Of a stretch of 27,511 bases of DNA, positions 4,281 to 26,091 are shown one piece after another. The stretch is from a virus, in the IMG/VR virus record IMGVR_UViG_3300010885_046063, positions 1 through 27,511 of that record. The stretch is one strand, 5' to 3'. The notes under the pieces were generated by a model. The model was not told the DNA's origin, searched no databases, and saw nothing but the letters and a program-made list of their open reading frames with translations. The translations under genes and the position numbers were made by a program. How positions within the stretch are numbered: the stretch's first letter is position 1; every line of letters begins with the position of its first letter.

Positions 4281-6521
4281 ATGACTACAAATAGAATATT
4301 AGGAACAAAAACCCCGGCCCAGTATGCCCGTGAACGAGCACCGGGTATACGTATTGACTCGGGGCCGTACCTAGCAATAGTTAAGGACAATTCAGATCAA
4401 TTGTTTCACGGTCGTCTAAGGGTCTACATTCCTGAATTTGGAAGTGATCCCAATGCAGAATCCAGTTGGTTCACAGTAAACTACGCCAGTCCGTTTTTTG
4501 GGGAAGTAAATCCAGGAGACAGAGGGCAAGCCGGTACCGATCCTGTATATGGTAAAACTAGACAGTCCTATGGCATGTGGTTCGTGCCGCCCGATCTTGG
4601 GGTCACGGTACTGGTTACATTTGCTGTAGGTAATCCTGATCTAGGTTATTGGTTTGCCTGTATACCTACTCCGCGAGCACACCAAATGGTTCCTGGTATT
4701 GCTGCTTCTAGCAACTATGTTGAAAATGGCACAGCAACTAAAGGCGACTTTCCGCAAGTACCAGTAGCTGAAGCAGTACTGGACCTAAGAGCAGACTTTT
4801 TAAATAGTCAGCGGCCAGTGCACACGCCGCAATTCAATATACTTCGTGATCAAGGTATTGCAGGCGACGCCGATCGCGGAGTTGTAACGTCTAGTTCACA
4901 ACGGGAGTCCCCATCTAGAGTATTTGGCTTTAGTACTCCTGGGCGCCCCGACCCTGATCCAGCTTATGGAACTGATCAAATCACACCCGATGATAACTTT
5001 CAAAAAAGCATTGTTGACAGCATCAATGGCGGGAATTCAAAGCTAGCCGAAGATTTATACAAGCCCACAGCTAGAAAAGGTGGGCACTCGCTGGTCATGG
5101 ACGACGGCGATCTAGTGGGCAATAATCAATTAGTGCGTCTTCGTTCAGCAACTGGTCATCAGATCATGATGAACGACTCTGCTGGAATCATTTATGTTAT
5201 TAACGCTGCCGGCACTGCTTGGGTGGAAATGACCCCTGACGGTAGTATTAACGTGTTCTCGGGTGGGTCCATCAGTATGCGAGCACAAGGCGGGATGAAT
5301 TTTCATGCTGATCAAGACATAAAATTTCATGCTGGTGGCAACATAACTATGAAAGCCAACGGGTCTTTAATTGCCAACAGCAAAAATATTTCTTTCAAAG
5401 CAGAATCAACACTAATTGCCGACGGCAACACATTGGTACTAGTAAGCGACTCTGACACTGTAATTCACGGTGACAGTTCATTGACGTTGAGTTCCGGGGG
5501 AGACTTAACTGCAACTGGCAGCATAGATTTGTCTTCTACAGGCGGTAACAAGCCCGGGTCTGGTGTTTCGCTGTCTACTACGGACTTTACTGAAACAGCC
5601 AAGTCTGGGTCAATTTGGGCTGCTAGCAGCAGCAACGCTACAAAATCAACAGTAAGCATTTTACCAACGCACGAACCATGGGCTCGACCTGATGGACAAG
5701 TTGATAGACAAGCTGCACAACAAGCCAATGCAACACCCAATGATGCCAATACAGATCCTAATACCAGTTCTAATCGTGCTGCAATTTCAGCAGCCGATTT
5801 TGGTAGTAAGGCTATCAACAGCTCCGCTAGTTTGTTTAAACCTGACACTGGTGCTTTGCAAACACTAGCTAAAGGCCTGCGTGTTACAGCTGAACAGATT
5901 GCAGCACAATTAGATCCACCCAATCCACCTATTGGCAATTTAACTGCGCTACAAACTAAAGCACTGTTTGCACAATTGGGATTACGCGAAAGTGGGTTAC
6001 GCTGTAATGTGGCCGGCGGTCGAACTGAATCAGGCAAGTATACTGGTAACTTTTTGGGCAAATATCAACTAGGGGCACAAGCACTAGCAGGTTCCGCTGG
6101 CTACATTGACAAAAAATGTCTTACTACAGAATATAAAAACAATCCCACATATGCTGTTCAAAGCGATGCTTGCTGGACTGGTAAAAACGGTATTAAATCT
6201 AGAACAGACTTTTTGAACAATTGCAGCGCTCAAGAAGATGCTATGCACGCCTTTACACAAGAACAATATAAAACCATGGTGGGCAACGGTACCATAAGAT
6301 CCACTGATACTCCTGAAGAAGTTATGGGCAAATTGACTGCGGCACATTTGATTGGGGTTGGTGGTGCATCCAAGTTGTTTAAAACAGGCATTGACAGTGC
6401 TGACGCTAATGGTACACATGGTAAATCATATTATGAACTGGGCAGACATGCTGCAAACGTAGCAGCTAATATGGAATATACACAAAAGCTAGCACAAAAT
6501 AAAACAACCGGCACTTCATAA
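4281..6521 (+). CDS. gp5: Baseplate hub needle protein gp5 with C-terminal wall-degrading domain
   Basis: 746 residues. An OB-fold typical of gp5/VgrG needles spans about 26-140 (LFHGRLRVYIPEFG, YGMWFVPPDLGVTVLVTF, GNPDLGYWFACIP). A linker leads to KGGHSLVMDDG (266-276), LRSATGHQIMMND and a parallel beta-helix of short repeats (about 300-425: GGSISMRAQGGMNFHADQDIKFHAGGNITMKA). After a second linker (430-550) comes a lysozyme/transglycosylase-like domain (about 551-735) with LGLRESGLRC (E570 as candidate catalytic acid), NFLGKYQLGAQAL and TAAHLIGVGGASKL, the usual order of an SLT-type fold. Its role is to puncture the outer membrane and digest peptidoglycan during injection. T4 gp5 (575 aa) carries its lysozyme between OB fold and helix; here it is last. 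gp25 starts 14 bp downstream. Confidence 0.85.
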   Translation: MTTNRILGTKTPAQYARERAPGIRIDSGPYLAIVKDNSDQLFHGRLRVYIPEFGSDPNAESSWFTVNYASPFFGEVNPGDRGQAGTDPVYGKTRQSYGMWFVPPDLGVTVLVTFAVGNPDLGYWFACIPTPRAHQMVPGIAASSNYVENGTATKGDFPQVPVAEAVLDLRADFLNSQRPVHTPQFNILRDQGIAGDADRGVVTSSSQRESPSRVFGFSTPGRPDPDPAYGTDQITPDDNFQKSIVDSINGGNSKLAEDLYKPTARKGGHSLVMDDGDLVGNNQLVRLRSATGHQIMMNDSAGIIYVINAAGTAWVEMTPDGSINVFSGGSISMRAQGGMNFHADQDIKFHAGGNITMKANGSLIANSKNISFKAESTLIADGNTLVLVSDSDTVIHGDSSLTLSSGGDLTATGSIDLSSTGGNKPGSGVSLSTTDFTETAKSGSIWAASSSNATKSTVSILPTHEPWARPDGQVDRQAAQQANATPNDANTDPNTSSNRAAISAADFGSKAINSSASLFKPDTGALQTLAKGLRVTAEQIAAQLDPPNPPIGNLTALQTKALFAQLGLRESGLRCNVAGGRTESGKYTGNFLGKYQLGAQALAGSAGYIDKKCLTTEYKNNPTYAVQSDACWTGKNGIKSRTDFLNNCSAQEDAMHAFTQEQYKTMVGNGTIRSTDTPEEVMGKLTAAHLIGVGGASKLFKTGIDSADANGTHGKSYYELGRHAANVAANMEYTQKLAQNKTTGTS

Positions 6522-6535: not shown

Positions 6536-6913
6536 ATGGCAACTTATCTAGGGTTTTCCACTGATAGCAAATTTAAAAACTTCAGGGCTACTGATTTTGA
6601 ACTAGCTGTTGAAGATTTGCTCAACCACTTCAATATTAGAGTTGGGGAAAAACTCATGAATCCCAACTTTGGATGTATAGTATGGGATATGCTGTTTGAA
6701 AATTTTACCGATGATGTGCGTACAGTGGTTATAGAAAACATAGGTGAAATAATTGATGCTGAACCTCGTTTGAATCTAAACACCATCAGTGTTGACGAAT
6801 ACGACCAAGGGCTGCAAATAAATTTAGAACTGCAGTATGTAAACTCGTCAATGGCTACTAATCTCAGTGTGTTTTTTGATCAAAACAGCGACAAAGTTTA
6901 TGTTGCTGGGTAA
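6536..6913 (+). CDS. gp25: Baseplate wedge protein gp25 (lysozyme-like fold)
   Basis: 125 residues, close to T4 gp25 (132 aa). Diagnostic features are FELAVEDLLNHFNIRVGEKLMNP, then NFGCIVWDMLFENFTDD and ENIGEIIDAEPRL, the conserved GE-x-x-MNPxFG-x-x-WDxLFE core of the gp25/TssE family. With gp53 and gp6 it forms the inner wedge ring and nucleates sheath assembly. It is not enzymatic in phages despite the old family name. It ends 57 bp before gp6 and is probably the last gene of the transcript starting near 392, although readthrough into gp6 is likely. Confidence 0.93.
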   Translation: MATYLGFSTDSKFKNFRATDFELAVEDLLNHFNIRVGEKLMNPNFGCIVWDMLFENFTDDVRTVVIENIGEIIDAEPRLNLNTISVDEYDQGLQINLELQYVNSSMATNLSVFFDQNSDKVYVAG

Positions 6914-6970: not shown

Positions 6971-9900
6971 ATGGCCAGTTCATCTCGACAGCAATCACTA
7001 CTAGTAGCCGAAGATTGGAAAAAAGTCTACCAAACTTTTAGGCAAGCCGACTTTCAAAGTTTTGACTTTGAAACCTTGCGTAAGAGCATGATCGACTACT
7101 TGAAGTTATATCAATACGAAGATTTCAACGATTTTATTGAAAGCAGCGAATACGTTGCACTAATTGATTTGATTGCTTTTTTAGGGCAAGGTATTGCTTT
7201 TAGGGCAGATTTAAATGCACGTGAAAACTTTATTGATACCGCTGAACGTAGAGACAGTATACTACGCCTAGCTAGACTGATCAGCTACAGCCCAAAACGC
7301 AACATGCCAGCGCAGGGCTACCTAAAAATCCAAGCTGTATCAACTACAGAAATTTTAACAGACTCGGCCGGCAATAGTCTAGCCAATCAAATCGTAAATT
7401 GGGCAGACCCCAATAACGATAATTGGCAAGAGCAGTTCAATACTGTTTTCAATGCTGCTATGGTGTCAACTCAACGTGTGGGTAAACCAGCAGCCCAAAC
7501 CACATTAGGTGCAGTTAAGTATCAGCAATATCAGCTGTTGTTGCCTACTGGAACAACACCAGTATATAAATTTTCTTCTACAATACAGGGTGTTAGTACC
7601 AATTTTGAAATAGTGGGTACCACTATTGAAGACGGTGTCTTAAGAGAATCTTATCCTTCGTTAAGAGGGCAATTTGACTTGCTCTATAAAAATGATGGTC
7701 AAGGGACACAGTCCGGTAACACCGGCTTTTTTGTAAGATTCACACAAGGGCAGTTAACTAATCAAGACTTTACTATTGATGAAAGTTTGAGTAATAGAAT
7801 TGTATCTGTAGACACCAACAACATTAATGAAAATGACGTGTGGTTGTTTGATGTAGATTCTACTGGTGCTAGCAGCACATTGTGGAAAAGTGTTCCTGCA
7901 GTAGCTAATTCTAATATTGTATACAATACAACTAGCAATTTTACTAAAAAAGCCTATCAAATTACCAGCAAAAACAGTGATCAAATTGACTTGACATTTG
8001 GCGACGGTAATTTCGCACAGATCCCAGTAGGCAATTTTAGAATCTATTATAGAGTTTCTAACGGACTCGCATATAAAATTTTACCTACAGATATTGTTCG
8101 TATTCCAATCATTATCAATTATCTCAGTAGAAGCAACAAAATTGAAACACTGACTATCTCAGTTAGCTTATCAACTCCTGTAACCAATGCTAGTGCTAGA
8201 GAAACTATTGACGAAATTCGCCAACGAGCACCGCAACAGTACTACACTCAAAATCGTATGGTCAATGGCGAAGATTACAACATCTTCCCGTATACAAAGT
8301 TTGCTAATATTGTTAAATCTAAAGCAGTTAACAGAACCAGCAGCGGTATTAGCAGGTATCTTGATGTAATTGACGCTACTGGAAAACACTCAACAACCAA
8401 CATATTTGGTGATGATGCAATACTATACGCAGATAATACTGTAGAATCTTTTACGTTTGACTACGCAACCAGCGCTGAAGTAGCAAATATGATAGGGTCC
8501 CAACTAAAACCAGTTATGACCAGTAGGGCAATGTTGCATTTTTATTATGCTTACTTTGCTCGAGCAACGTCCTCATTATTGTGGCATCAAAGCACTGTTA
8601 GCACTAATCAATGCACTGGTTATTTTAGACGAGCAAACAGGGATCAACCCGAGCCTATTGGTGCAAATTATGCCGATACAATAGTAAAAGGCACACTAAT
8701 TAAATTTGCTGCTCCCGCAGGCAAGTATTTTGATCTTGACAACAATCTAGCAACTGGTACACCAAATCTTGCAATTGGGCATCGACTGTTTATATACGCT
8801 ACTGTGGTTACCTTAATTTATGATGGCACAAATTCAGGACAAGGTAATTTTGCTGACGGGGTTGGGCCAGTTTCATTAAATGAAAAAATTCCTTCTGACG
8901 CAGTTATAAGCGAATTTATACCTGTTTGGCAAAGTGGATTCACCAACGACCTTACTACTACTGTTATTGCTGATATTCTAGCAAATAAAAACTTTGGGTT
9001 GGCCTTTGATTCAAACAACGGAGTTTGGAAAACAGTTACTACGCTGTTGCCCGCCAGTGCGTCTTTTAATGAAACAACTAATCCATGGTTAATTAGATTT
9101 GACTATGCGTCAGGTGTCTATACAGTTTCGTATAGATCATTGAAATACATTGTAGAAAGTGCGTTGCAAACACGTTTTTACTTTGATTCACGTTTGAAAA
9201 TTTTTGATTCAAAAACTGGGCAGTTAGTAATTGACCAAATCAAAATGTTGAAAGCTAATTCTCAGCCTGACAACGGTTTGCCTTACCCACAAGATCAAAT
9301 ATGTCACGTATTTGCACAAGTTGTAGAAGCTGACGGCTATGTCGACTCTACTAAAATTGAAGTATCTTTTGCTGACAGCGACAATGACGGCGTGCCCGAC
9401 GATCCAGACTTTTTTGAAACTGTAGTGTTTTCAAAATCCGCTAGTGATATTCCGGGGCTAGTTGATCGAACAAATCCTGCACGTGGGTACACTAAAACTT
9501 CGCTGGTTTTTTATAAAACCAGTACCGAGCAGTATAACTATATTCGTTGGGTCCCAATTGCTAAAGGGGAGGTGCTTATATATTCATCCTTGGCCAGTAT
9601 CACTGCAGTAAAAAATCAATATCCTGTTGGACAGCTTTTTTATGCAATCGGATCAAAATTAATATATCAATCCAATAGCAATTTTGAACTGTTGGATGTA
9701 ACTGCATCTTATCTAATTCGTGAAGGGCGTCAAAATTTATTTTTCCAATACAAGCACAACAGCCCACAAAGTAGAAGAATAGATCCTAGTCCAGTTAACA
9801 TTGTTGACTTGTACATATTAACTAAACAATATGATATTGATTATCGTCTCTGGGCGCAAGACAGTACTGGTACAATAGCCCAGCCTGCACAACCCAGTTC

Positions 9901-10357
9901 AGAAGAGTTGGCAGTAAGTTACAGTGATTTAGAACAGTATAAAATGACCAGTGACAGTATCATTTACAATTCTGCCAAGTACAAACCTATTTTTGGGGCA
10001 GGCGCTGATACTACACTGCGAGCAGTGTTTAAAGTGGTTAAATTAGAAAACAGTTTGGCCAGCGATGCCGAGGTTAAATCCAGTTTGATTTCGGCAGTGA
10101 ATACATACTTTGCTGTTGAAAATTGGGATTTTGGTGAAACATTTTATTTCAGTGAAATGGCTGCATATCTACATCAACGTCTAGCATCTATGGCCAGTAG
10201 CATAGTAATTGTGCCTGCACAATTAACGCAAAAATACGGTGCATTGCAGCAAATTAATGCTGAACCTGATGAAATTTTAATCAGTACTGCTCGAGTTGAG
10301 GATGTAGCAATTATTTCTGCAATTACTGCTGTTCAACTTAACTCGTTCGGGTCATAA
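6971..10357 (+). CDS. gp6: Baseplate wedge protein gp6 (enlarged)
   Basis: 1128 residues against 660 in T4 gp6. The N-terminus is typical: AEDWKKVYQTFRQADFQSFDFETLRKSM, then EYVALIDLIAFLGQGIAFRADLNARENF (about 60-88) and RLARLISYSPKRNMPAQGYLKI (about 99-120). A conserved DEIRQRAPQQYYTQNRMVNGEDYNIFPYTKF lies at 414-444. The C-terminal gp6/J-like domain (about 1015-1125) includes VENWDFGETFYFSEMAAYLHQRL. The extra length is mainly between about 480 and 960 and contains a calcium-loop-like DSDNDGVPDDPD (802-813). gp6 dimers form the inner ring that holds the wedges around the hub. Five bases separate it from the next gene, so the two are probably cotranscribed. Confidence 0.85.
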   Translation: MASSSRQQSLLVAEDWKKVYQTFRQADFQSFDFETLRKSMIDYLKLYQYEDFNDFIESSEYVALIDLIAFLGQGIAFRADLNARENFIDTAERRDSILRLARLISYSPKRNMPAQGYLKIQAVSTTEILTDSAGNSLANQIVNWADPNNDNWQEQFNTVFNAAMVSTQRVGKPAAQTTLGAVKYQQYQLLLPTGTTPVYKFSSTIQGVSTNFEIVGTTIEDGVLRESYPSLRGQFDLLYKNDGQGTQSGNTGFFVRFTQGQLTNQDFTIDESLSNRIVSVDTNNINENDVWLFDVDSTGASSTLWKSVPAVANSNIVYNTTSNFTKKAYQITSKNSDQIDLTFGDGNFAQIPVGNFRIYYRVSNGLAYKILPTDIVRIPIIINYLSRSNKIETLTISVSLSTPVTNASARETIDEIRQRAPQQYYTQNRMVNGEDYNIFPYTKFANIVKSKAVNRTSSGISRYLDVIDATGKHSTTNIFGDDAILYADNTVESFTFDYATSAEVANMIGSQLKPVMTSRAMLHFYYAYFARATSSLLWHQSTVSTNQCTGYFRRANRDQPEPIGANYADTIVKGTLIKFAAPAGKYFDLDNNLATGTPNLAIGHRLFIYATVVTLIYDGTNSGQGNFADGVGPVSLNEKIPSDAVISEFIPVWQSGFTNDLTTTVIADILANKNFGLAFDSNNGVWKTVTTLLPASASFNETTNPWLIRFDYASGVYTVSYRSLKYIVESALQTRFYFDSRLKIFDSKTGQLVIDQIKMLKANSQPDNGLPYPQDQICHVFAQVVEADGYVDSTKIEVSFADSDNDGVPDDPDFFETVVFSKSASDIPGLVDRTNPARGYTKTSLVFYKTSTEQYNYIRWVPIAKGEVLIYSSLASITAVKNQYPVGQLFYAIGSKLIYQSNSNFELLDVTASYLIREGRQNLFFQYKHNSPQSRRIDPSPVNIVDLYILTKQYDIDYRLWAQDSTGTIAQPAQPSSEELAVSYSDLEQYKMTSDSIIYNSAKYKPIFGAGADTTLRAVFKVVKLENSLASDAEVKSSLISAVNTYFAVENWDFGETFYFSEMAAYLHQRLASMASSIVIVPAQLTQKYGALQQINAEPDEILISTARVEDVAIISAITAVQLNSFGS

Positions 10358-13775: not shown

Positions 13776-16700
13776 ATGGCTTTAAATAATTTTCGTAAAT
13801 CCAATGTTGTGGTCAACGGCACCGTTGCCGCAAACGGAACAGTTGCTCGAGCGGCAGGCTATGTTAATTGGATCGCAGACAATTTGCGAAAAAACTTTCG
13901 TTCCACTGATACTATTACCAAAGAGCTTGCAAAAACCAGCGTACAGCTGAGCTATGCACTTGGTGGATACTCAACAAAGCGCTATCTAACTATATTAGGG
14001 GAGCAAAGTTCTCCAGCAGCGACTTCTAATGGTATACTGATCCCCGAAGACGATTATGAAATATTTTTGCACAAGAGTCAACCTACTATGCAGGTTATCT
14101 ACAGTGCAGTAGTAGTCAAAAAAACCAATTTGGGATACAGCGTATCAGGATATGATACTGCTCGCCCATATTTTACAATTGTTCCTTCGGTAATAACCAA
14201 CAACAGCTATGGCATTTCAGTTAATGGTGTTGGCGCAACAGTATACAATGATTATGAAGACTATACAGTTGATCTGCCGTATAACACTGAATTCAACACT
14301 ATTCAACAAGTTGTAGACTTTTTAGTAAGTTACCAGCGTTATTTGGTGTCAATGGGTGTACTGTTTGTAGACACTTCGCCAACTCTTAAAGAAACACTAA
14401 ACTTTGTATTAAGTGCTAAAGAGTTTTTGACTTGGCATCAACAAGGGTGGAAAGAAAACAACTTAATTGTGCTTAGTCCTGTAGCTGATACATTAAAAAT
14501 TAATCTACTCAGTGGCACAACTGATCGCATACAAAATAACAAGTTAAGTAGTCGTGTACTAGATCAAAACTTTAACATTGTTGACAATAAAGATCTTGAC
14601 GTAAATCGTTACGATAATTTTACTTCTATATTTTGTAAACGAGCAACTACTATTGGGTTAGCGGTGCTAGATGTGGTTGAGTATGAACACCAAATCGTTT
14701 TCAATAATATTACTCAATTCAATGACATACTTTACCAGCCTGAGTTGGGCAGTAGACAGCCTAGATTAAAAATATCTGGTACAAAAACTGACAATTGGGC
14801 CGGTACCTTGGATGTTCCTGGATTCATTGTTAATTTTAGCACAGTTGACAATTGGTCTGCTGATCAAGTTTATTCTATTGGCGACATCGTTAAGTACAAG
14901 ATTTTTTATTATGTAGCATTAGAAAGTAACACTGGCTTAACATTTAACACTAGTGTTTGGCAGCAAATAGACTATAACAGCATTAATCAAACACTGTTAC
15001 CAAACTTGGCCACAATGGCCGCGCAGGGTAAAGATTATTACAATGTTAACACAGTTAATATTAATGAATCTATTGACAGTCATGCTCGCGGACTTATAGG
15101 ATTTAGAGCAAGAAGTTACTTTAACGACTTGGGCATTGACTCGGTTAGCCAAACCAAGTTCTATCAAGGCTTTATTAGAAATAAAGGGGCATTGCCGTCT
15201 TTATCGGCTTTGAAAAATGTTAATTTTGGTAAACTGTATAATACTGCATCCATTTACGAAGATTGGGCTTTTAGAGTTGGCGAGTACGGCGGAACTGACA
15301 TTAATCAATCCATTGAAATTGCGCTACAAGAACAGTATTTTTCCACTAACCCTGGTATTGGAGAGCTAGGTAGTGTTCAAGAATATACAGGATCGCAGTT
15401 AATAACCCTTAACGATTTTTACAAAAAGCCAGTTAATTTTACCACTGATGAATTTGCAGAAGAATTTCTAGCATACCGTGAAGATTCTATTCGCAGTGCT
15501 GGTTATGTTGATCCTGACGATGTCAACGCTACTGTATTTGATATACAAGATTTGTCGGCCAGTGCCCTACTGCCCGATATCTATCCAGGGTATGTTATTT
15601 GGTGTGCACTAGACTACACTAGATCATGGAACGTGTATAGAGTATCTGACACTGGACTAACTTTTAAAGAAATCAGCAACGCATTAAATCAACAGTTGAT
15701 GATTGAGTTTAAAGATATTCACTTGTTAAGTGTTGGGGATATCGTTGCTGTTAAAAATTTCAGTGATCTTATTGACGGGTTTTATCGTGTAGACGCAACT
15801 CCTACAATAGATTCTATCATAGTTACTACTACACAAAGCCTATTAGGCTTTGTATCTACAACTGGTACTGGTGTATTTTACAAGCTGATAGGGTTGAGAT
15901 ATGCTAATATTGAAAACAGCGTAGAGTTTACGCCACAAAACAATTGGCGTGAAAACGAAAAAATTTGGATCGACAATTATGATGAGGCCGGCAAGTGGGC
16001 TGTATTAGAAAAACATTCACCTTGGAATGTAGATTCTACAACACTGTATTCTACTACAGTTTCAGGATTTGGTGGGTCGTTAGCAACCGAAAGCACAGGT
16101 ACATATCTTATAGCAGGTACTAGTAATAAAAAGGTACTGGTTTATAAGAAAAACGCTACAACAGGGGCATACAACACTATTCAAACTCTAACAAATTCCT
16201 ATACTGGAAATGTTAGCTTTGGCGCTAACGTTGACTATTACGATTCTATACTAGCTGTTGGGGATTTAAGGTTTGCTAATTCTGGTGCAATTTTATTGTA
16301 CCAAAAAAACGCTACAACAGATCAATTTGAAATTGGACAGTTTATTGCACCAGTATTGTCAAATACTTCGCAATTTGGGTTTTCGTTTGTATTGAGCGCT
16401 AATTATCTAGTAATAGGCGCTCCGGGTATCAATACCATTTACATCTATAAAAAACAAAGCCAACCCGAGTATACACTGAGTGTACCTAAGCCCAACGACA
16501 ATATACCGTTAAATTCTACTGTTACTTTGGCTATTACTCCTACAGCAAGTGATTCTATTATACTGATAACCACTGCTGGCAATGTTATATCTCCAAGGAC
16601 ATATTCAATTACAGGTGCAACAATTACATTTAGTGTAACTCCTACAATTGGGTATACAGTATACCAACGCAGTTATTATTTTAAACAGTATCAAATAATT

Positions 16701-19700
16701 AACGACAAGAGCATTAGTGGCCCAACTGACTTTTTTGGCTATAGCGTTGACATAAACGGTGCTGAAGACAAAATTTATGTTGGCGCACCCTACGCTGATG
16801 TTTACGATAATACGCTACAGAAATTCGTCAACAATTCTGGACGTGTTGTTGCCTATTATTTGAACAGTGGGTATTTTCAGTTTATGCAACGAATTGAACC
16901 CACCGATGTCAAAGTCAATGGTGAATTTGGTACTGCTGTTAAGTCTTGTAAAAATGATCGTTCACTGTTTGTAGGAGCCCCGGGTGTTAGCTTCCCTGAC
17001 ACATATAGATCAGGACAAGTTTACAGATTTGACAATACAGGACAAATTTTAGGTACTATATCTACTAAAACAGTGACTGGCAATTTACCTTTGTCTGGTA
17101 CTATTGTAATCAACGGTGTTGAACTTATAGTCAGTGGTGACATCAACAATGTCAAACGTCAAATCGACTCGGCTGCAATACCCTATATTGACACTGCAAT
17201 TAGTAATTCTGTATTAACTATCAGTTCAAGATCGCTAGTTGAATTTAACAAATTAACTGTACTGCCTGGTATTGGTGAAGCATACAGTGAGCTAGGGCTA
17301 AGTTTCTTAACTGAAACACAGGTTATTCCCAATCCCATAAACAGGAATCTCAGTAGGTTTGGTGATGAGTTAGATTTAAGCAACAACGACACCCAACTTT
17401 TTGTTAGTTCTCCTCATGCCACTACTATATTAGATACTGTATTTGACAGTGAAAGTTGTAGTTTTGATGCAACTGCTACTATATTCCGTGATCAAGAAGC
17501 AGACAGTGGTAGTGTTTGTGTGTTTGAATTTATCAAACCACTAACTCCTACTGCCAGTAATTTAGGTAGTTATATATTTGGGCAACAACTAGAATCAGCA
17601 GCAATTAGTCCCGGGGATCTATTTGGTTCGTCTCTAGCAATTGCTAATGAAACTGTATTTGTTGGCGCACCTGGCGACGATATACTGTATGGTACTGACG
17701 ATCGTGGACGAGTGCAGATATTTAAAAATCCCGATATTAAGTCGCTGTGGAGTCGAGTCAAATCCAGCGATGTATTAGTTAATGTAGATGCTATTAATCA
17801 AGCATACCTCTACAACAAAAAGACCAATACAATCGCTGTTACATTAGACATTGTTGATCCTATTAAAGGTCGTATATTGGGCATTGCTCGACAAGATATA
17901 GACTATATAGAATCTCAAGACCCTGCTACTTATAACAGAAGCAGTGGGCTTGATGCATTAGGTGAAGCTAGAATCAGCGAAAACAATTATTGGGCAGATC
18001 AATATGTAGGTCGTTATTGGCTTGACACTAGCCAAACTAGATTTGTTGACTATGAACAACAAGATGTTGTTTATAGAAAAGCCAACTGGAATCGTTTATT
18101 TGACAACAGTGTAGTGCGGGTATATCAATGGATAGCGTCTGATGTATTACCTAGTACATACAGCAGTTACTATGCAGGTGAACCCAAATATCCTTATGAT
18201 GAATCATATGTGGTATCTTATTCTACAGATAAAAGCACTGGCGGCTCACGAGCTACTTACTACTATTGGGTTAGAAACTACAATATCATCCCTACGAATA
18301 AAGGACTAAGTACTACTTCGATTGAAGAATATATTGCAAATCCTAAAGCGTCAACAATTCCTTACATTGCATTTTATTCGCCGACTGCGTTTGGATTATA
18401 CAATGTTGACAACTATATTTCTGGCGATGATACAGTATTGCATATTGATTATGATATTGAACAAAATGATCGAGTTATCCACAGTGAATACGAACTAGTA
18501 CAAGAAAACAACAGTACCAGCAATCCTCCAGCAAGAATACTAAAGAAGTTTATCGACAGTTTGTCTGGGCTTAACTCGATCAATGATCTAGTGCCAGATC
18601 CTGGTCTTAAAGTGTCTGAACGTTATGGTCTTGGTATTAGACCTAGACAAACGCTGCTAATTGATCGTACGGCTGCACTTGATGTTTTGGTTAAACAAGC
18701 CAATGCCATATTAGTTCATTTATTTTCCGCTGAACGTATTGTTGGCACCGACTTTTTCTATAATCAGGGCACACAAGATGCTCGATCCTATTGGCGTTAT
18801 GCTACATGGACAGCTGAAGGGTATGATATTACAACCAAACCACAATACACTGTTGCTAAATTTGCTGATCTTGAAAGAAAAACATATGCGGTTGGCACTA
18901 TAGTAAAAGTGACCAATGACGGTGATCGTTTTGCTATTGTGCAAATAACTGACACTGGATTTGATTTGCAAGCACAAGAACGTGGCACTATTGAACTGCT
19001 GCCTGCACTTTATCAAACCGTTCCGCAGCCTGCTGTTAGAAAATTACTAGACAGTTTATTCTACGAATTGTTGATTGAGGACTATGCAGTATATGCTAAC
19101 CAATTATTCTTTGGGTTGGTTAGATACACCCTGCGTGAGCAAAAGTATTTGGATTGGGCATTCAAGACCAGTTTCTTAACTGTTAATCACAATGTAACGC
19201 AATTTGAGCAATGGCCTAATTATCAACCTGATAATACCACATATTTGATGGATTATATCAACGAAGCCAAGCCTTATCATACTAAAATTCGTGAATATCG
19301 CCCTCGATACAACGGAGTTACTACAGCAGGTGTTACTGCTACTGACTTTGACTTACCGGCATTTTACGATGCGGCTCGAAGTATATTTAGATCTCCCTCG
19401 GGTGAAATTGCGGGTGATGCAACCTTATGGGATATTCAACCACAATATCAAGACTGGTATAATAATTATAAAAACGGCATAGTCTCTGTAAACATTAGTG
19501 TTGCTGGAACTGGTTATTATACTCCGCCGGTCTTGTCTGTTACTGGTGGTGGCGGGCTAGGTGCAGTCTTAGAAGCAGTAGTCAGTGGTGGAACAATTGT
19601 CAGTGTAATAGTCAAAGACACTGGACAAAACTATATCAGCACGCCCACTATAACTGTCTCTCGAGTGGGCACAGTTCAAAGATTAAACACTGGACTAGTT

Positions 19701-20951
19701 GCTGCTGCTTTGGAAAACAAAGCCAGGGGTATTGCTATAGATACAGTGCTTAATGCTGCGTTTGACATTATTGCGAATGGGTTTAAACTTGGGGATATGA
19801 ACAACAGTGGACTCGTCACATTTGATGATAGCCAACTTGTGCGTAGATACAGCACAAACAGTTTAACTGGGCCAGACTTAACACGAGTTAATGCCAAAAT
19901 GACTGCGATTGAGGCCTACGTAATTGATCATAACGGCACAAGCAGTTTAAATGTTGACGCTGTATTGGCTGCGAAATTAGATAATACAACCACTAGAAAA
20001 ATTCAAACACACTTGTTGTTTGATCGTATTGCTTATGCTCCTACCAATACCGACGTTGGATTTGATCTTCAATTGTTTGATGAGGACACATTTGACAGTG
20101 TTAATCCTAACGCTGCTAATCAAAACGCATTAGACCGAGCCAAACAGTACTATACCAGTAATCCAGGGGCTGCAGGACTAGACTACGCTCAACTATTCTC
20201 TGGGATTGAATTCCCTGGATATAACATTCAAGGTGTTAGCTACAATGCTGGTAGCGGGTTTGATGCTTATGCATACGAATCCGCTAATCCCTCTATAGGA
20301 TACAGCGGTGCCGGTGATCAAAACAATTTAGCTGACATGATTATTCAAGGCTCATACAGTGATTTTACTGGTACACGGGCTGAAGACATTGTATTTGATG
20401 GTGGCCAATATATTGACCCTGCACATAGTCATTCTCCAGAGGAACTAGTCCCGGGCATGATATTTGATACACTGGAAATTAGAGTGTTTCATAAGTTTGC
20501 AGGGTCTGCTACGCCCAATATAACATTTAGAATGTTTAAAAACCTACTCAATCAGTACAGTTACTATAGAATGAGCTCAACTAATGCTACCACACTCAGT
20601 CAACCGTTGTTGATTAGTGACACTGAAATCTCTGTTGTATCGGCTGTGGCTTTAGATGCGCCTAGCCCTACCAGTGCAACACCTGGAGTTATTTTTATAA
20701 AAGGCGAGCGCATTACTTATTTTGAACGAGACATTGTTAATAATAAACTACGTCGTATTCGGCGAGGAACGGTTGGTACAGGCGCACCGGCAGTGCATGC
20801 CAGTGGTACAGCAGTTGTTGGTGCAGGCGCTAGGCAAGCACTAATTGATGCACACACTACCGTTTGGTATAATCCAATTACTGGACTTGAAACTTCAACC
20901 ACTGACATAGCAAAATTCTTAAAAGAGCAACCACCGGTGTCTGTAACCTGA
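13776..20951 (+). CDS. Giant virion structural protein with FG-GAP propeller, CBM-like and dockerin-like modules
   Basis: 2391 residues, the largest gene here. Modules in order: an N-terminal domain (YVNWIADNL, ALGGYSTKRYLTILG); a CBM5/12-like motif at 358-398 (W, YSIGDIVKYK, YY, W); seven FG-GAP-like blades between about 757 and 1320 (for example FGFSFVLSANYLVIGAPG at 867 and FGSSLAIANETVFVGAPGDD at 1293); a Trp/Tyr-rich part with FEQWPNYQPD and DYINEAKPYHTKIREYRP (about 1810-1843); a Gly-rich beta module at 1901-1963 (GTGYYTPPVLSVTGGGG); a dockerin-like loop at 2004-2020 (LGDMNNSGLVTFDD); and a beta C-terminus with FIKGERITYFERD. These suggest a peripheral baseplate part that touches the cell surface. 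The start follows a late promoter. Function is inferred from context and modules, not from a recognised family. Confidence 0.6.
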   Translation: MALNNFRKSNVVVNGTVAANGTVARAAGYVNWIADNLRKNFRSTDTITKELAKTSVQLSYALGGYSTKRYLTILGEQSSPAATSNGILIPEDDYEIFLHKSQPTMQVIYSAVVVKKTNLGYSVSGYDTARPYFTIVPSVITNNSYGISVNGVGATVYNDYEDYTVDLPYNTEFNTIQQVVDFLVSYQRYLVSMGVLFVDTSPTLKETLNFVLSAKEFLTWHQQGWKENNLIVLSPVADTLKINLLSGTTDRIQNNKLSSRVLDQNFNIVDNKDLDVNRYDNFTSIFCKRATTIGLAVLDVVEYEHQIVFNNITQFNDILYQPELGSRQPRLKISGTKTDNWAGTLDVPGFIVNFSTVDNWSADQVYSIGDIVKYKIFYYVALESNTGLTFNTSVWQQIDYNSINQTLLPNLATMAAQGKDYYNVNTVNINESIDSHARGLIGFRARSYFNDLGIDSVSQTKFYQGFIRNKGALPSLSALKNVNFGKLYNTASIYEDWAFRVGEYGGTDINQSIEIALQEQYFSTNPGIGELGSVQEYTGSQLITLNDFYKKPVNFTTDEFAEEFLAYREDSIRSAGYVDPDDVNATVFDIQDLSASALLPDIYPGYVIWCALDYTRSWNVYRVSDTGLTFKEISNALNQQLMIEFKDIHLLSVGDIVAVKNFSDLIDGFYRVDATPTIDSIIVTTTQSLLGFVSTTGTGVFYKLIGLRYANIENSVEFTPQNNWRENEKIWIDNYDEAGKWAVLEKHSPWNVDSTTLYSTTVSGFGGSLATESTGTYLIAGTSNKKVLVYKKNATTGAYNTIQTLTNSYTGNVSFGANVDYYDSILAVGDLRFANSGAILLYQKNATTDQFEIGQFIAPVLSNTSQFGFSFVLSANYLVIGAPGINTIYIYKKQSQPEYTLSVPKPNDNIPLNSTVTLAITPTASDSIILITTAGNVISPRTYSITGATITFSVTPTIGYTVYQRSYYFKQYQIINDKSISGPTDFFGYSVDINGAEDKIYVGAPYADVYDNTLQKFVNNSGRVVAYYLNSGYFQFMQRIEPTDVKVNGEFGTAVKSCKNDRSLFVGAPGVSFPDTYRSGQVYRFDNTGQILGTISTKTVTGNLPLSGTIVINGVELIVSGDINNVKRQIDSAAIPYIDTAISNSVLTISSRSLVEFNKLTVLPGIGEAYSELGLSFLTETQVIPNPINRNLSRFGDELDLSNNDTQLFVSSPHATTILDTVFDSESCSFDATATIFRDQEADSGSVCVFEFIKPLTPTASNLGSYIFGQQLESAAISPGDLFGSSLAIANETVFVGAPGDDILYGTDDRGRVQIFKNPDIKSLWSRVKSSDVLVNVDAINQAYLYNKKTNTIAVTLDIVDPIKGRILGIARQDIDYIESQDPATYNRSSGLDALGEARISENNYWADQYVGRYWLDTSQTRFVDYEQQDVVYRKANWNRLFDNSVVRVYQWIASDVLPSTYSSYYAGEPKYPYDESYVVSYSTDKSTGGSRATYYYWVRNYNIIPTNKGLSTTSIEEYIANPKASTIPYIAFYSPTAFGLYNVDNYISGDDTVLHIDYDIEQNDRVIHSEYELVQENNSTSNPPARILKKFIDSLSGLNSINDLVPDPGLKVSERYGLGIRPRQTLLIDRTAALDVLVKQANAILVHLFSAERIVGTDFFYNQGTQDARSYWRYATWTAEGYDITTKPQYTVAKFADLERKTYAVGTIVKVTNDGDRFAIVQITDTGFDLQAQERGTIELLPALYQTVPQPAVRKLLDSLFYELLIEDYAVYANQLFFGLVRYTLREQKYLDWAFKTSFLTVNHNVTQFEQWPNYQPDNTTYLMDYINEAKPYHTKIREYRPRYNGVTTAGVTATDFDLPAFYDAARSIFRSPSGEIAGDATLWDIQPQYQDWYNNYKNGIVSVNISVAGTGYYTPPVLSVTGGGGLGAVLEAVVSGGTIVSVIVKDTGQNYISTPTITVSRVGTVQRLNTGLVAAALENKARGIAIDTVLNAAFDIIANGFKLGDMNNSGLVTFDDSQLVRRYSTNSLTGPDLTRVNAKMTAIEAYVIDHNGTSSLNVDAVLAAKLDNTTTRKIQTHLLFDRIAYAPTNTDVGFDLQLFDEDTFDSVNPNAANQNALDRAKQYYTSNPGAAGLDYAQLFSGIEFPGYNIQGVSYNAGSGFDAYAYESANPSIGYSGAGDQNNLADMIIQGSYSDFTGTRAEDIVFDGGQYIDPAHSHSPEELVPGMIFDTLEIRVFHKFAGSATPNITFRMFKNLLNQYSYYRMSSTNATTLSQPLLISDTEISVVSAVALDAPSPTSATPGVIFIKGERITYFERDIVNNKLRRIRRGTVGTGAPAVHASGTAVVGAGARQALIDAHTTVWYNPITGLETSTTDIAKFLKEQPPVSVT

Positions 20952-24270: not shown

Positions 24271-26091
24271 ATGGCTTACAGTGTAACTCGAGCAGACGGC
24301 ACACGATTGGTCACCGTTGAAGATGGCTCTAAAAATCAACAGTACTCTGTAAGTTTTATTGGTAAAGGCTTAGCTGCCTATGGTACCATGCTTAACGATA
24401 ATTTTCTTAGACTGTTGGAAAATTCTGCCAGCAGTACTGCTCCACTTAGTCCGGTGCTAGGACAACTTTGGTATGATATAACTAACAATCTGTTAAAAAT
24501 CTGTAAAAACGAATCTCCTGTATCATGGGTAGCAGTTGGATCTTCAATAGAAGCTGTTGTTAATCTCGGCAATGTATCAACTGCTGCTATTATTGACCGT
24601 TCAGTGGGCAATGTGTTCAAGCTAACTGCTACAGCCAATTTTACCGTTGCTGTCAATAATCTCACTGCCGGACAAACAGTTACACTGATTATAACCCAAG
24701 ACAGTACTGGTAGTAGAATTTGGGGGTATCCTTCAACATTTAGATTTCTAGGCGGAGTTGGCACTCTTAGCACCGCTGCTAATGCTGTAGACAAAGTAGA
24801 CGTAACATATGACGGTACATACTATTATGTTAGTATTACTAAAGGATTTGTTGCGGTAACTTCTCCAACATTGGGTACTATAGTATCTGCAACAGGAAAC
24901 GGCGGAGAATTTACTATTGTTGTTGCTAGTGCATCTGGACTTGCGATTGGACAAGCTGTTTCGGGTCCTTGCATTGGTGTGGGTGCTGTAATAACCAACA
25001 TTGTTGGCACAACTGTGACATTAAGCGTAGCAAACACTTGTGCAGTTAACGGTAATATTGTTGGTACAACAATACCTACCACAACAACCACAACAACTAC
25101 AACAACTCAAGCGCCTACTACTACAACAACTACGACTGCGGCTCCTGGAGCAACTACTACAACAACAACTCGAGCGCCTACTACAACAACGACTACGACT
25201 GCGGCCCCTGGAGCAACTACTACAACAACAACTCGAGCGCCTACTACAACAACGACTACAACTAGCACAACAACTACAACACCAATTCCTGCGCCAGTAA
25301 TTAATACCTTTACTTACTCTCCAAGCACTATCCTAGCTAACGGTGTAGCTACTTCTACAGTTTCTTGGACTACAACTGGTGCTTCGTCTGCAACCTTAAA
25401 GATTGACGGCTCAGAACCACCAATAACTGTAGCGACATCAGGAACTCGAACAGTCGGGCCTTACAACTCGGGTGGAACAGGCTCGGCATTACTACAAGTT
25501 ACAGGTGTAGGTGGTACTACATCACAAACCATAAACTTGACAATCAATGCTGTAACTACACCAACTACAACAACCAGTACCACTACTACAACTACTACAG
25601 CAGCACCTGGCGCACCAGTTACTCCACTAGGATTTAATGGTAATTACTATTACTGGAGTAAAGGAGGAACATCCAGCTCCGGCGTAAGTTCAATGACATT
25701 GAAGTTCCAATCCAATGGTACTTGGTCAATTATCAAAGCCAGTACTGGAAATCCCCCGCGCTTCTCAATTAACGGTACTGATGCTTCGTGGACTGACAGT
25801 ATCACTGGTAACTGGTACTCACCAACTACTGCCAACGTTGGCACTGGTTATTTGGTTAAGTTTACTTCAACCGATTACAGCTTTTCTAATAACGGATCAA
25901 CTACACTGAGTGGTGACGACAGCGGTTGGTTAGTACTTAACCAAGACAGGACACAACAGGTAAGTATCACTTCTACTAGCGAAGATTCTATTCGTGTTGC
26001 TTGGCGCGTAGAAATTGCTGTCAACAACAGCGGATCACCAGGTACTATTGTATCAACTAGCGTAGTTGAATTTGAAGGGTATCATACCTGA
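24271..26091 (+). CDS. Tail fibre-like protein, paralogue 3, with Thr-rich linkers and Ig-like domain
   Basis: 606 residues. Residues 1-80 are the shared N-terminal module (MAYSVTRADGTRLVTVEDG, FIGKGLAAYGTMLNDNFLRLLENSAS, PVLGQLWYD). A beta region follows to about 265. Residues 267-340 are a threonine-rich linker of tandem repeats (APTTTTTTTAAPGAT type). Residues about 341-428 look like an Ig/PKD-type domain (INTFTYSPSTILANGVATST, VSWTTTGASSATL). A second short Thr linker (429-446, ending AAPGAP) leads to a C-terminal beta domain (FNGNYYYWSKGG, SGWLVLNQDRTQQVSI). AAGGA at 24256-24260, ten bases before the ATG, supports the start. It is the last gene of the late block. The tip domain and receptor are unrecognised. 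Confidence 0.7.
   Translation: MAYSVTRADGTRLVTVEDGSKNQQYSVSFIGKGLAAYGTMLNDNFLRLLENSASSTAPLSPVLGQLWYDITNNLLKICKNESPVSWVAVGSSIEAVVNLGNVSTAAIIDRSVGNVFKLTATANFTVAVNNLTAGQTVTLIITQDSTGSRIWGYPSTFRFLGGVGTLSTAANAVDKVDVTYDGTYYYVSITKGFVAVTSPTLGTIVSATGNGGEFTIVVASASGLAIGQAVSGPCIGVGAVITNIVGTTVTLSVANTCAVNGNIVGTTIPTTTTTTTTTTQAPTTTTTTTAAPGATTTTTTRAPTTTTTTTAAPGATTTTTTRAPTTTTTTTSTTTTTPIPAPVINTFTYSPSTILANGVATSTVSWTTTGASSATLKIDGSEPPITVATSGTRTVGPYNSGGTGSALLQVTGVGGTTSQTINLTINAVTTPTTTTSTTTTTTTAAPGAPVTPLGFNGNYYYWSKGGTSSSGVSSMTLKFQSNGTWSIIKASTGNPPRFSINGTDASWTDSITGNWYSPTTANVGTGYLVKFTSTDYSFSNNGSTTLSGDDSGWLVLNQDRTQQVSITSTSEDSIRVAWRVEIAVNNSGSPGTIVSTSVVEFEGYHT
25111..25263 (+). repeat. 63-bp tandem repeat coding Thr-rich linker
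   Basis: Two complete 63-bp units (25111-25173, 25174-25236) and a partial third (from 25237) encode A-P-T7-A-A-P-G-A-T6-R. The two full units differ at only three bases, all silent (ACT/ACA, ACA/ACG, GCT/GCC). That points to recent in-frame duplication with selection on the protein. Confidence 0.9.

Follow-up and report, generated by a model that had tools for sequence, protein, structure and literature searches.

The spike gene at this locus raises the question of what a wall-degrading domain would do when it is placed behind the needle of a phage tail, and whether it would be packed and released in the manner of the lysozyme of T4 gp5. The gene (4281-6521, forward strand) encodes a protein of 746 aa, identified as a gp5-type spike from its ORF translation, Pfam and PHROG matches and fold matches. 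It lies in a 27.5 kb IMG/VR virus record, IMGVR_UViG_3300010885_046063, the whole 27,511 nucleotides of which are referred to here as the window. The order of elements along the protein is OB fold, beta-helix, a PTHEPW segment, a linker and a compact C-terminal domain (CTD).

The spike portion and its genomic setting

The baseplate genes of the window resemble those of RaK2-like jumbo phages. Genes for a gp53-like wedge protein (1288-1587) and a gp25-like wedge protein (6536-6913), both assigned through Pfam and PHROG, are found on the forward strand with the spike gene, as is that for a baseplate wedge subunit (6971-10357; phrog_10646, E = 4e-301), while a late sigma factor gene occupies the opposite strand at the left end. 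The annotated gene order in GAP32 and PBECO4 is the same as that around the spike gene, with the addition of one extra lysozyme gene. Further along, a 606-aa ORF (24271-26091) that is likely to be a tail-fibre gene contains a tandem repeat of 63 bp in 2.6 copies (25099-25263), and a 2391-aa protein (13776-20951) has an FG-GAP repeat match at residues 1278-1316.

The upstream part of the protein has the predicted composition of a gp5/VgrG-type spike, an OB fold followed by a needle beta-helix. PHROG 13211 (baseplate hub subunit and tail lysozyme) matches residues 14-472 (E = 9e-42). The OB fold, at residues ~25-135 (4353-4685, forward strand), is matched by PF04717 at 95-127 with an E-value of 3e-4, slightly below the curated Pfam cut-off, by structures at 26-129, and by profile to the OB regions of GAP32 and Atu_ph07. 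The beta-helix, at residues ~266-440 (5076-5600, forward strand), is matched by DUF2345 at 322-422, again slightly below the curated cut-off (E = 8.5e-4), and is modelled with a pLDDT of 70-91 over residues ~300-430. Its structural matches are spikes, namely those of extracellular injection systems, phage P1, VgrG and T4 gp5. Over its whole length the monomer model is poor, with a mean pLDDT of 63.5, but the helix and CTD are well modelled.

Directly after the helix comes the PTHEPW segment (residues 462-467; 5664-5681, forward strand), recognised from conservation in a 27-row alignment in which E465 and P466 are invariant and H464 nearly so; it is perhaps part of the needle tip. An HEP (or AEPW) motif is present past residue 350 in all 92 of 92 distinct gp5 relatives, fused or split, and the spikes of PA5oct and SCTP-2 have ends similar to this segment. 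The variable linker that follows (residues 470-547; 5688-5921, forward strand) is delimited by pLDDT, lack of conserved columns and spread of length: residues 470-532 fall below a pLDDT of 50 in the full-length model and are probably flexible or disordered, no invariant or nearly invariant column lies between R469 and G552 in the 27-row alignment, and the distance from HEP to the domain ranges from 52 to 297 residues in 66 proteins. The sequence-only reading of this gene had drawn the linker from 430 to 550; a linker does exist, but residues 434-456 are modelled as strands, 464-466 are invariant or nearly so, and the low-confidence stretch is confined to 470-532. The linker and post-helix segment contain no cysteines, and the CTD contains four, at residues 575, 613, 631 and 648 (window 6003-6224). 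Of these, C613 and C631 recur in close relatives, and a disulfide between them is possible.

The C-terminal domain and its proposed catalytic glutamate

The CTD (residues ~548-740; 5922-6500, forward strand) is predicted to be lytic-transglycosylase-like from PHROG matches, conservation, modelling and structural matches. The PHROG match is at residues 548-741 (E = 7e-23), to PHROG 27932, which bears the same name as PHROG 13211. A profile from 53 relatives, from which the window protein and the five closest to it were withheld, recovers the window protein at E = 8e-51; among 2000 shuffles of this protein none scored better than 0.005. When modelled alone from 58 sequences, the domain reaches a pLDDT of 95.7 and a pTM of 0.90. 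The top structural matches in the PDB are lytic transglycosylases, namely Cj0843 (Z = 11.2 over 135 residues, 3.1 Å), MltC (10.6), MltE (10.5) and Slt (9.7), with further matches to MltF and then to phiKZ gp144 (9.1) and phi6 lysin (8.5). By the E-values of Foldseek itself the matches are weak (best 0.035); the Z scores come from re-examination of its PDB matches, and values of 8-11 can arise from a shared arrangement of elements alone. The model has the SLT/goose-type (GH23-like) lytic transglycosylase fold. This supports the earlier proposal of a wall-degrading-type domain behind the OB fold and needle, at residues 551-735 (5931-6485); its motifs are in place, and only its extent requires correction, to ~548-740.

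The proposed catalytic residue is E570 (E570-S571; 5988-5993, forward strand), which sits where helix 556-571 ends and, like its neighbour, does not vary across the alignment of relatives (58 of 58). The catalytic glutamates of MltE (E64) and Slt (E503), as named in PDB titles, would correspond to model positions 24 and 25 in an ungapped alignment of the first helix, and E570 is position 26; the proposed equivalence is one of position only. Family-1 transglycosylases usually carry two further motifs, GLMQ and AYNAG, to which the GKYQ at residues 593-596 and the AHLIGVGGA starting at 688 may correspond.

Searches by sequence alone give a more distant picture. No Pfam or NCBIfam family matches the window's own CTD, and a PDB sequence search with two CTD profiles returned chance matches only. 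Among relatives of the domain, 37 of 58 match aggregation-promoting-factor C-terminal domains (best E = 6e-9) and six of 27 match the Transglycosylas model PF06737 (best E = 3e-4). The domain is under purifying selection among close relatives, with dN/dS values of 0.12 and 0.08 from two pairs with unsaturated sites; pairs including the window protein were dropped, as synonymous sites were at or near saturation in most regions of these pairs. Two other candidates were rejected: a GH24 or M23 enzyme, as Pfam detected no M23 domain and no PF00959 match at E = 1, and a lysozyme between OB fold and helix, as the CTD profile has no match in residues 1-545. The sequence-only reading, which had such a domain only behind the helix, stands on this point too.

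A proposed tethered cutter and its alternatives

T4 gp5 likewise consists of an OB fold, a needle helix and a wall-degrading domain, but that domain is a GH24 lysozyme in mid-protein, with the chain cut at Ser351-Ala352, rather than a transglycosylase-like domain at the C-terminus. It had been supposed that the T4 lysozyme is freed by this proteolysis. The cut is real, but by the published account (PMC3004832) it does not by itself free the enzyme, since the (gp27-gp5*-gp5C)3 complex stays together; the lysozyme lies against the helix and is about 10% active in the trimer, and full activity appears when the helix dissociates.

Going by the sequence and model comparisons above, the window protein is probably a spike with a lytic-transglycosylase-like C-terminal cargo, and it would act as a tethered periplasmic peptidoglycan cutter. 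A trimeric needle would carry three CTDs into the periplasm upon tail contraction, where, still tethered, they would cut nearby peptidoglycan so that the tube could pass. On its linker of ~75 residues behind the helix, the domain would not be held as the T4 lysozyme is. As it hangs there and is not wedged in between the OB fold and the helix, it should need neither shedding of the helix nor a cut in the chain to be active. It is plausible that its packing and release differ from those in T4.

Processing of the kind seen in T4, at another place in the chain, is a less likely account, in which the linker is cleaved during assembly or on entry, so that the domain would work as a free enzyme. Such processing has a precedent, as T4 gp5 is cut in the linker beside its lysozyme (PMC3004832), and the window linker is long and probably disordered. 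However, there is no conserved column in residues 470-551 to serve as a common cleavage site, a degenerate site still being possible, and the length of the linker varies between 52 and 297.

IMG/VR was scanned with the whole gp5 protein, which found 433 stretches encoding relatives, and with the CTD alignment, which found at least 544; the best 80 of 433 and the best 80 of at least 544 were retained. The CTD scan favours intact domains because its patterns came from intact-domain motifs. With 5'-truncated ORFs, duplicates and named-phage loci left out, there were 94 distinct N-terminal-part proteins, including that of the window. Among these, drawn from the best 80 per scan, the domain is in the same chain in 68 and in a separate ORF directly downstream in 25, and in one (L081) no CTD-type domain was found. 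Two of the 68 fused proteins (L113 and L165) have the domain ahead of the helix, which leaves 66 with it behind the needle; 64 of these 66 keep the glutamate, the exceptions being L067 and L072. Further C-terminal regions resembling an M15-type D,D-carboxypeptidase were seen in L039 (4001-7327), L113 (2600-5326) and L165 (3533-6028); this identity is a by-eye reading only, because none of them has a Pfam match.

Where the domain is encoded separately, the glutamate is absent from the aligned column in every case (0/25 among the best 80 per scan), and in L046 and L049 an ungapped alignment by eye has Asp in its place. The split ORF starts a few bases from the gp5 stop in the examples read, as in the TAATATG of these same two loci. 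When one split domain served as the query of an additional scan, this and two small scans yielded 61 distinct ORFs between them, partly from the same contigs as before: the glutamate is kept in 0/60 separate ORFs and is likewise lacking from the one fused. The gp5 gene is directly upstream of 47 of the 61, 13 are at a contig edge and one shows none. Loci at which separate genes were seen downstream of short gp5s include L044, L046, L049, L048-L083 and L172-L255. Three changes (in either direction) are required to explain the split state on a tree of the N-terminal part. A quick tree that omitted five long rows rejects a single clade for all split rows with L081 (p = 2e-5), and likewise for the minor three (p = 0.007); these values are optimistic because the groups were named after seeing the first tree. 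The split form is placed in at least three lineages. The downstream ORF of L052 had no match among named phages. A compensating wall-degrading enzyme beside the split loci was considered and rejected, as Pfam detected none in the ten proteins scanned (seven downstream or neighbouring ORFs of split loci, two split-locus gp5s and the Phosso gp5).

That Glu-less homologous domains are common implies that a non-catalytic role exists in this family, and the recurrent separation of the domain as an apparently dead copy is less expected than the layout itself. It is nevertheless improbable that the window's domain is mainly structural, a needle cap or docking module with enzymatic activity secondary or lost. 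The retention beside gp5 of separate versions without the glutamate (25/25 and 60/60 distinct ORFs in the partly overlapping sets), as well as the two fused relatives lacking it, would fit such a role, but a purely structural domain would not require the glutamate that is kept in the window and in almost all fused C-terminal forms.

A combination of roles is also conceivable. No PAAR tip gene was found in the window (0/1) or in 14 related IMG/VR records (0/14), which may be incomplete. Among 11 other genomes, PAAR was found in four (Cr30, PA5oct, Atu_ph07 and SCTP-2, the match in the last containing two stops), and it was not found in RaK2, GAP32, PBECO4, Vibrio 2.275 or phiM9. A link between an enzyme-bearing needle and the absence of PAAR is possible, the genomes being few and incomplete. 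Tentatively, the domain could have a dual role, tethered peptidoglycan cutting together with capping or docking on a PAAR-less needle, such that a gene break at the linker would leave capping only, a recurrent switch to a separate dead cap. The Glu-less split forms represent a natural test for a structural role of such cargo.

Finally, a glycosidase acting on another polymer, such as chitin or capsule, is very improbable. A Ralstonia chitinase catalytic domain does have the same fold (Z = 7.9), but peptidoglycan transglycosylases rank higher in the structural matches, and tail lysozyme and endolysin are the names given to related PHROG families.

The position behind the needle in known systems

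A search of 50,697 phage records gave 33 with a match to the CTD and 60 with one to the N-terminal part, and comparison of the two lists by eye found no record common to both; hence no isolate was seen with the window's combination of domains. The best viral model match to the CTD is a 742-aa protein of an uncultured Caudovirales phage (UniProt A0A6J5L6V6; TMq 0.76, 35% identity), which is named as a Gp5/VgrG OB-fold protein and may have the same combination of OB fold, helix and CTD. No account of this layout with a transglycosylase-like enzyme was found in the literature, a search of open-licence papers that does not imply absence.

Comparison with other T4-like gp5 proteins indicates that the domain is not tied to one position. 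The gp5 proteins of the Rhizobium/Sinorhizobium phages phiM9 and RL2RES, and those of contigs L113 and L165, carry the window's catalytic domain family with the glutamate present, but with the domain preceding the helix, whereas in the window it lies behind. L113 and L165 have the T4 order, Gp5_OB (E = 2e-15 and 1e-19, respectively) being followed by the CTD family at ~154-325 and then the helix; in phiM9 and RL2RES the domain is at ~332-492, ahead of the helix, and no OB fold was detected before it. This suggests that one enzyme domain family is used in both the T4 slot and the C-terminal slot.

The basic layout is already known, as a C-terminal lysozyme behind the helix is described in the papers on RaK2 and CBB. 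The former (2013; PMC3622015) terms the helix with C-terminal lysozyme a very unusual domain composition, and the latter (2017; PMC5259590) contrasts the gp5 domain order with that of T4 and mentions a possible M23 domain. The RaK2-like proteins (RaK2 ORF078, CBB_240 and GAP32_234) have an OB fold and helix homologous to those of the window, with the enzyme likewise C-terminal behind the helix and a matching gene neighbourhood. The enzyme itself differs, being a GH24 Phage_lysozyme at ~760-870 with a weak M23 match at ~545-617, instead of a transglycosylase-like domain. Less to be expected are the transglycosylase-like type in the C-terminal slot and the use, by other T4-like phages, of this domain in the T4 slot.

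Other occupants of this slot are diverse. GH24 is found there in RaK2, GAP32 and Vibrio phage 2.275, and in PBECO4 by annotation and length only. The gp5 homologue of the Agrobacterium phage Atu_ph07 (L086, 3962-6556) has a trypsin-like peptidase domain at residues 700-849 (E = 6e-17), a protease on a phage needle. The C-terminal region of the Phosso spike homologue has no assigned domain, and the slot is empty in the homologues of PA5oct (477 aa) and SCTP-2 (476 aa). This suggests that a large, jumbo-type phage group uses the place behind the needle as a general cargo slot, which holds nothing, a GH24, a trypsin-like or a transglycosylase-like domain.

Such a slot parallels the evolved VgrG proteins, spikes with a C-terminal wall-degrading extension, of which VgrG3 of Vibrio cholerae is an example (PMC9927483). 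The window protein shares with these an effector-type C-terminal extension behind the helix. By contrast, VgrG has a gp27-like part before its OB fold, whereas only ~25 residues precede that of the window protein, the OB fold aligning from residue ~24 here and from ~363 in VgrG1 (4uhv). With this difference, the window gp5 is a phage counterpart of the evolved-VgrG layout.
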